Shown here in pieces: positions 17,451-19,563 of a stretch of DNA of 32,691 nucleotides; within the stretch, counting starts at the first letter, position 1, and the number at the start of each line of letters is the position of its first letter. This DNA is from Candidatus Kerfeldbacteria bacterium RIFCSPHIGHO2_12_FULL_48_17 (lineage in GTDB: Bacteria > Patescibacteriota > Patescibacteriia > HO2-48-17): positions 1 through 32,691 of the forward strand of contig MHKD01000003.1 of the NCBI GenBank assembly GCA_001818775.1, read 5' to 3'. The translations under genes and the position numbers were made by a program. Below the pieces are notes generated by a model. The model searched no databases. It was not told where the DNA came from and saw only the letters and a program-made list of their open reading frames with translations.

Positions 17451-18008
17451 CTATTGAAAAAGTTTTTTACGAAATTCTGCCAGCGCCGCTGGATCATACA
17501 ACTGCATCCGCATAATATGCATCGCAATTTCCGGACCTAAAAACTCGCGCGATCCAACAATTTCCAAAAACCGTTCAAAATCCACTGACTCCAAACGAAT
17601 TTTTTCTCCCGGATCAAGATGCGGCTCACCAACCTGATGGCAACCGCGCGCCACAAACACGCGAATCTTAAAATCCACCGACGGCACCGGATCAAACACC
17701 GCCAATTCCACCCAATCATCCGACACCAAACCGGTTTCTTCCCTGAGTTCGCGCTGCGCACCGAGCAAAGGATCTTCACTCCCCTCACGCCGACCACCAA
17801 GCAAACCCACCCAGGGCCGAAAATGCGGCTGCTGCTCATGCGCCACCACAATTTTCCCCTCATACACCGGAATAACCGATAAGTTATCCGGTCGCTTCAG
17901 CATTTCAAATGTCGCCTCGCTGCCGTCAAACATTGTTTGCGGCCACTGGAAGACATCGTAGATAACGCCGCGAAACACACGCTTGGCTTGTGGAGGAATT
18001 TTACCCAT
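17451..18008 (-). CDS. NUDIX hydrolase, ADP-ribose pyrophosphatase-like
   Basis: GGRREGSEDPLLGAQRELREETGL; start MGKIPPQ at 18008 preferred. Confidence 0.82.
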   Translation of the reverse strand: MGKIPPQAKRVFRGVIYDVFQWPQTMFDGSEATFEMLKRPDNLSVIPVYEGKIVVAHEQQPHFRPWVGLLGGRREGSEDPLLGAQRELREETGLVSDDWVELAVFDPVPSVDFKIRVFVARGCHQVGEPHLDPGEKIRLESVDFERFLEIVGSREFLGPEIAMHIMRMQLYDPAALAEFRKKLFQ

Positions 18009-18052: not shown

Positions 18053-18090
18053 AAAAAAAGGTTGCCTCTCTACAACGATGTGAGGCAACC
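18053..18090 (-). terminator. Intrinsic terminator
   Basis: Minus strand GGTTGCCTC...GAGGCAACC (perfect 9-bp stem) followed by TTTTTTT. Confidence 0.75.
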
Positions 18091-18420
18091 GGGATCGAAA
18101 TTCGAAAGAGCTGAAGCAATCCGTCTCTGGTGTTAGGACCAGAGTCATTGGGTTATGCAGCCCATAGACCGACCGCGGCCGGATTACCCGCTCGGAAAAA
18201 ACATGGGATCCTCGCCATCTGCGTCATGGCGAAGTCATGGGAAGCTCGGCTACACCCGACTGGCGAAGCGAAGCGCAGAAAATCCACCGACGCGCATGCT
18301 ACGAATCGAACGTAGTCAGTGAGGACGCAACCCACTACCCTCCAAGGGACACACGCTCAACCCGCCACACGAACCATTTCCGTGAACGGGTTGTTGACCA
18401 TAATCGTGGTAAGTAAGATG
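18053..18420 (-). ncRNA. Candidate structured non-coding RNA of about 370 nt (unassigned), containing a 65-nt tRNA-like segment at 18292-18356
   Basis: Promoter and terminator bracket it; no credible conserved ORF. Hairpins: CAACCCG/CGGGTTG (18358-18364/18387-18393), T-arm CTACG-TTCGATT-CGTAG (18299-18315), CTCTGGT/ACCAGAG (about 18125-18144), TCGCCA/TGGCGA (about 18212-18232). Confidence 0.4.
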
Positions 18421-18425
18421 ATAAA

Positions 18426-18454
18426 ATACTACCTCTCGCGATGGGGGTTGTCAA
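18426..18454 (-). promoter_or_regulatory. Sigma70-type promoter
   Basis: Minus strand TTGACA (18449-18454), 17-nt spacer, TAGTAT (18426-18431). Confidence 0.6.
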
Positions 18455-18513: not shown

Positions 18514-19563
18514 CTATTCCCCAATTTTCACTTTCGATTTCTGCAAAAACTCCGCTGATTCCAGCAACTTTTCCATAACCTCCTCACGCCCTTCCATCTG
18601 CTTCAGCTTGGCCGACAACTCCAACTGCTTCTGCCACTCCACAAACCGCTCATGCTGAAAACGGATAACATCACGCTGCAAATGCGCCGCTTCCCGCCGC
18701 ACTTTATGGCCCTCAATATCGGCCTGTAACCGCTGCTCCTCGGCTTCCACATACAAATCCACATACGGCAATCGCGAAAGTGCGCGCCGCAAACTGGGAA
18801 AGTACTTTTTCAGCACACTGTACGCCCGCTTCACGCCCAAATACAACACCCCCGGTGAAGCTACCGACAACCGCTCCAAATCAAACACCTTATGATACCG
18901 CCCGGCAGCCAAAGAAACCAGCATCCGCTCCGACTTCGGCGCCTTTTCATATTCCGCAATCATCAACAACAACGAACACAACCGATTAGCATGATTGATA
19001 ATGCTGTACAATTGCGCATTCGTCAGACCCGACTGCTCGATGGAAAACCGCACGATCAGCTCGCGCATTTTCGTACGGCGATACTCGGTGAACAAATGCT
19101 TCACGCGCTCCGGATAGGGAAACAACGAAAAATATTTACCGGCCAGACGACTGTCAAACACACTCAAATCAGCTTCATAGGCCGCATCCAGGGCAAAACT
19201 CTCGGCATATTTCTTCCGCGCTCGCGGCACCAGGCCAGCCCCCATCTTTGTATGATACATAAACCCCAATTCGTATCCAAAAAAAAGTGCGCCCAGCAAC
19301 GTCAGCGTTTGGCGCTCAATAAGCGTAGCGCAGGCGTCCAAAGCCGGTCGCAAATTCGGCACATACATCGTGGCCGCCGCCGAGCGCGTAACTTCGGAAT
19401 ATTTCCAGGGACCAAGATTGTCGGAAACCGCCACCGTCACACGCATGTTTCCGCGCCGCTCGATTTCACGGATCAGCGTGGAATAGTAATGAGGATGCCA
19501 CTGCTTGGGCCAATCATGCGGCAGTGATTGTTGTTGCGACTGGGATGTTTTGCGAGCCTCCAT
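18514..19563 (-). CDS. Hypothetical protein
   Basis: 349-aa ORF 9 nt downstream of cfa in the same orientation; charged, coiled-coil-like C-terminus; family not recognised. Confidence 0.7.
   Translation of the reverse strand: MEARKTSQSQQQSLPHDWPKQWHPHYYSTLIREIERRGNMRVTVAVSDNLGPWKYSEVTRSAAATMYVPNLRPALDACATLIERQTLTLLGALFFGYELGFMYHTKMGAGLVPRARKKYAESFALDAAYEADLSVFDSRLAGKYFSLFPYPERVKHLFTEYRRTKMRELIVRFSIEQSGLTNAQLYSIINHANRLCSLLLMIAEYEKAPKSERMLVSLAAGRYHKVFDLERLSVASPGVLYLGVKRAYSVLKKYFPSLRRALSRLPYVDLYVEAEEQRLQADIEGHKVRREAAHLQRDVIRFQHERFVEWQKQLELSAKLKQMEGREEVMEKLLESAEFLQKSKVKIGE

Follow-up and report, generated by a model that had tools for sequence, protein, structure and literature searches.

The window analysed is a stretch of 32,691 nucleotides (contig MHKD01000003.1) from Candidatus Kerfeldbacteria bacterium RIFCSPHIGHO2_12_FULL_48_17, which has a small, reduced genome of 1.22 Mb (assembly 91 % complete). 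The region of interest is a 505-nt intergenic stretch on the minus strand, running from the stop of a gene for a 349-aa protein (18514) to the start of a NUDIX hydrolase gene (18008). The upstream gene (18514–19563, minus strand) forms an operon with a cyclopropane synthetase-like gene; its product has no Pfam match and was found neither in 143 other genomes of the class nor in viral contigs. The downstream NUDIX gene (17451–18008, minus strand) has its own -10-like sequence, TAGAAT, near its start, and homologues sharing 26–48 % identity were found in 29 other class genomes. Between the two genes lies a putative transcription unit (18053–18425, minus strand) of about 367–373 nt that has no coding signal. 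Its G+C content of 53.4 % is the highest among the ORF-poor intergenic stretches of this genome, with the neighbouring genes nearly as high.

The unit is flanked by two signals, both claimed in the original prediction and both present on reading the sequence. At the 5′ end is a sigma-70-type promoter-like site, TTGACA-17-TAGTAT (10/12; 18426–18454, minus strand; -35 at 18454–18449 and -10 at 18431–18426), which places a putative transcription start near 18419. The same layout (TTGACA-17-TATATT) is found just upstream of the RNase P RNA gene of this genome. At the 3′ end, an intrinsic terminator (18053–18090, minus strand) consists of a perfect 9-bp stem, GGTTGCCTC and GAGGCAACC, enclosing a 13-nt loop (18090–18060) and followed by a run of seven T (18059–18053). 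The consensus terminator scan has a loop limit of 8 nt and so does not list this hairpin, which a separate scan recovers. The ATG of the NUDIX gene lies 44 nt past the end of the T-run.

The frequency of such arrangements was counted by script over 1.0 Mb (82 %) of the 1.22-Mb genome. A bracket was defined as a promoter matching at 10 or more of 12 positions, located 150–600 nt upstream of a strict terminator, with noncoding DNA between them. Only 2 of the 39 strict terminators in the 1.0 Mb are part of a bracket, and the unit described here is one of the two. The other (contig C28, 3874–3994, minus strand, locus L111) is a short unit that includes a 27-codon ORF, MNHQSYWSTIIMFVLFLNGGASLVDTP, and folds strongly for its composition. 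The 1.0 Mb contains 355 promoter-like sites, and 14 of its terminators are preceded by at least 150 nt of noncoding DNA; from these numbers about one bracket is expected by chance and, hence, the bracket by itself is weak evidence. An exact -35 sequence with a 17-nt spacer is rarer, as TTGACA-17-TAnnnT occurs 62 times in the 1.0 Mb, counting both strands, corresponding to about 1–2 % per 450 nt of a single strand.

No convincing ORF had been claimed for the stretch between these signals, and our analysis agrees. The seven ORFs tested score between -0.06 and -0.30 bits per codon, whereas the neighbouring genes score +0.19 to +0.29. No ORF of the stretch matches Pfam, and a small protein was rejected on these grounds. 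One 14-codon ORF (MVNNPFTEMVRVAG and a stop; 18357–18401, minus strand), the translation of which would begin 19 nt past the putative transcription start, is possibly a leader peptide; no Shine-Dalgarno sequence was seen for it.

The RNA had also been described as able to fold into several strong hairpins, and these include a multibranch hairpin domain near the 3′ end (GAGC...GCTC, 18108–18193, minus strand), but the folding is not distinctive. The z score of the unit is -1.9 to -2.9, varying with the shuffles used, and in stability it ranks 62nd of the 165 ORF-poor intergenic stretches of the genome. This is a mid-rank position and, thus, the hairpins are no evidence for a structured RNA. On the same measure, the RNase P RNA of this genome scores -7.7 and its tmRNA -1.8. 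The most extreme score among the intergenic stretches tested (z about -14) belongs to C16:14060–14310 (locus L099), where both strands fold strongly, and this stretch is probably a long inverted repeat.

A cmscan search against all Rfam families, as the original prediction had proposed, returned no known family for the unit, T-box and riboswitch leaders included, and a literature search found nothing relevant to it. The unit resembles tmRNA (RF00023) and RNase P RNA (RF00010) in length only. Their hallmarks had been reported as lacking, and neither model matches in the window; the genuine copies are elsewhere in the genome (C13:11375–11778 and C41:3213–3639, respectively). The models for 6S RNA (RF00013) and the small SRP RNA (RF00169) also do not match the unit, and have no matches anywhere in this genome, though tmRNA and RNase P RNA are both present. 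Nor is the unit a group I intron, and ARAGORN in intron mode reports no tRNA bearing such an intron within it. Two such genes were found elsewhere in the genome, at C9:9526–9817 (plus strand) and C44 about 40249–40534 (minus strand). Each is interrupted by an intron of about 215 nt in which group I-like motifs occur; one is a tRNA-Phe(GAA) and the other, called Thr(TGT) by ARAGORN, is probably Asn(GTT).

The tRNA-like part of the unit is a segment at 18292–18356 (minus strand), GCGTGTG...CATGCGC, which includes the acceptor-like pairing GCGTGTG/CATGCGC of the original prediction and is called a tRNA-Arg(GCG) by ARAGORN (18359–18289). Within it is the T-arm-like hairpin CTACG-TTCGATT-CGTAG (18299–18315, minus strand), with a perfect 5-bp stem and a TTCRANY loop, and there is also a 7-nt loop containing GCG. 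Perfect T-arm motifs occur 34 times in the 1.0 Mb, nearly all in tRNAs, and that of the unit is among the few outside them. ARAGORN calls are likewise rare by chance: two were made in 12 Mb of shuffled genomic sequence, and 20,000 shuffled versions of the unit gave none. The tRNA-like arm noticed earlier is present as a motif, but it does not hold up as a meaningful tRNA feature. The Rfam tRNA model (RF00005) does not report the segment at E ≤10 in a search of the whole genome, whereas 39 real tRNAs score 47–78 bits. In the cloverleaf drawn by ARAGORN the D-stem is short and rich in wobble pairs, position 37 is a T (U) and the variable loop has 3 nt, in place of a canonical D-arm, a purine at position 37 and a variable loop of 4–5 nt. 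At -18.1 kcal/mol the cloverleaf is 4.8 kcal/mol worse than the best, alternative fold (-22.9 kcal/mol), and the tRNA-like arm is absent from the predicted minimum-energy fold. When compared to the real tRNAs of the genome, the best score of the segment is 27, against a mean of 25 for shuffled sequences and at least 48 for pairs of real tRNAs. The segment is therefore predicted not to be a tRNA.

A canonical tRNA-Arg(GCG) is unusual in bacteria. One is found in the closest relative, the same-family genome G001 (contig C6:80687–80760, locus L258), but the segment shares no similarity with it (score 20). No Arg(ACG) was found around the 30 best tRNA loci of G001 or among the tRNAs of the genome studied here, and in this 91 % complete assembly no ordinary arginine tRNA with either GCG or ACG was found, yet CGC and CGT are its commonest arginine codons. 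Other needed tRNAs are likewise missing or intron-split in this incomplete assembly, and we judge the anticodon agreement between the segment and the G001 tRNA to be accidental.

No homologue of the unit was identified by any approach. Searches at the DNA level of two overlapping sets of class genomes, of 57 and 381 members, yielded only short matches, with E values of 0.001–0.02 per genome and scattered along the unit, and no homologue was found in the 381 genomes. Within its own genome the unit matches only itself and is neither a repeat nor a paralogue. Single-sequence covariance models, applied to 95 genomes with stricter filters because more than 40 genomes were searched, also found none; the best foreign match of model R1 is a true tRNA-Pro, and model R2, based on the 3′ multibranch domain, has no foreign match. 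In these searches the class was sampled and not searched as a whole. No homologue was found in phages or plasmids, and the exact motifs were not found in viral contigs. Nothing resembling the unit is found upstream of the NUDIX homologues, several of which are themselves directly preceded by a -10-like site; it is thus no conserved leader. Scans based on the NUDIX gene yielded no near relative, the closest homologue found being 48 % identical. With no homologue found in any search, there is no sign of selection on the unit.

The reading we favour, though tentatively and at somewhat less than even odds, is that the unit is a free-standing, lineage-specific short transcript of an ordinary kind. 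From the consensus promoter, RNA polymerase would begin transcribing near 18419 and would halt at 18053, where the intrinsic terminator ends, releasing an RNA of about 367 nt that would be untranslated or barely translated and that would precede the NUDIX gene yet be separate from it. In favour of this are the perfect -35 sequence and 17-nt spacing, as for the RNase P RNA gene, the strong terminator, the scarcity of such brackets in the 1.0 Mb, the lack of a coding signal, the G+C content and the absence of a conserved leader. Against it are the lack of homologues, the mid-rank fold and the expectation of about one bracket by chance. Nearly as likely, if still doubtful in itself, is that there is no unit, in which case the hairpin would terminate the upstream operon after a long 3′ untranslated stretch, and chance would account for the promoter-like site. 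The chance expectation of about one bracket per genome and the unremarkable fold stability are consistent with this, as is the lack of a strong terminator directly after the 349-aa gene, where the consensus scan lists only a weak 6-pair hairpin (18475–18460). However, a perfect -35 sequence at a 17-nt spacing has only about a 1–2 % chance of occurring in the stretch, and 420 nt is long for a 3′ untranslated stretch in so compact a genome.

We consider it rather unlikely that the unit is an attenuation leader for the NUDIX gene, in which the terminator would be conditional and an upstream segment would hold its 5′ arm, allowing read-through, with the 14-codon ORF translated or not. Like attenuators and T-box leaders, the unit has promoter, leader, terminator and gene in order on one strand, with only 44 nt from the T-run to the NUDIX start, and when the transcript extends only as far as the 5′ arm of the terminator, this arm is predicted to pair with the upstream segment with a probability of about 0.7. 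Yet in the complete transcript the full terminator is predicted to outcompete this pairing completely. Moreover, the -10-like site near the start of the NUDIX gene, the lack of a similar leader in its homologues and the lack of a match to any known riboswitch or T-box all argue against such a leader. We consider it very improbable that the segment is a tRNA-Arg(GCG) that has diverged or decayed, or that it mimics one. The rare ARAGORN call with its GCG anticodon, the canonical tRNA in the closest relative and the apparent gap in decoding CGC and CGT speak for it, but the silence of the tRNA model, the defects at the D-arm, position 37 and the variable loop, and the lack of likeness to real tRNAs speak against it, and the gap is one of several in the assembly. 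A functional tRNA in the unit is unlikely, and the resemblance of the arm to a tRNA is most probably incidental. Also very improbable is a new structured RNA confined to one genus, with a 5′ domain that mimics tRNA-Arg(GCG) and senses or binds a tRNA-handling factor.

Returning to the short free-standing transcript, the unit shares with orphan bacterial intergenic small RNAs a promoter-like site, an intrinsic terminator, the lack of an ORF and restriction to a lineage. It differs from them in being long and in that its transcription is inferred. It would be transcribed, end at the terminator and act as a small RNA, and one may guess that it would act on targets by base pairing or by protein binding. 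Neither a short transcript of this type, nor a leader, nor an operon terminator with a chance promoter is new in kind, and nothing marks the unit as a new kind of RNA. If it is transcribed, the unit would be a further example of a lineage-specific small RNA from a bacterium with a reduced genome. The locus also illustrates that an arm that looks tRNA-like to the eye may not pass a covariance model.
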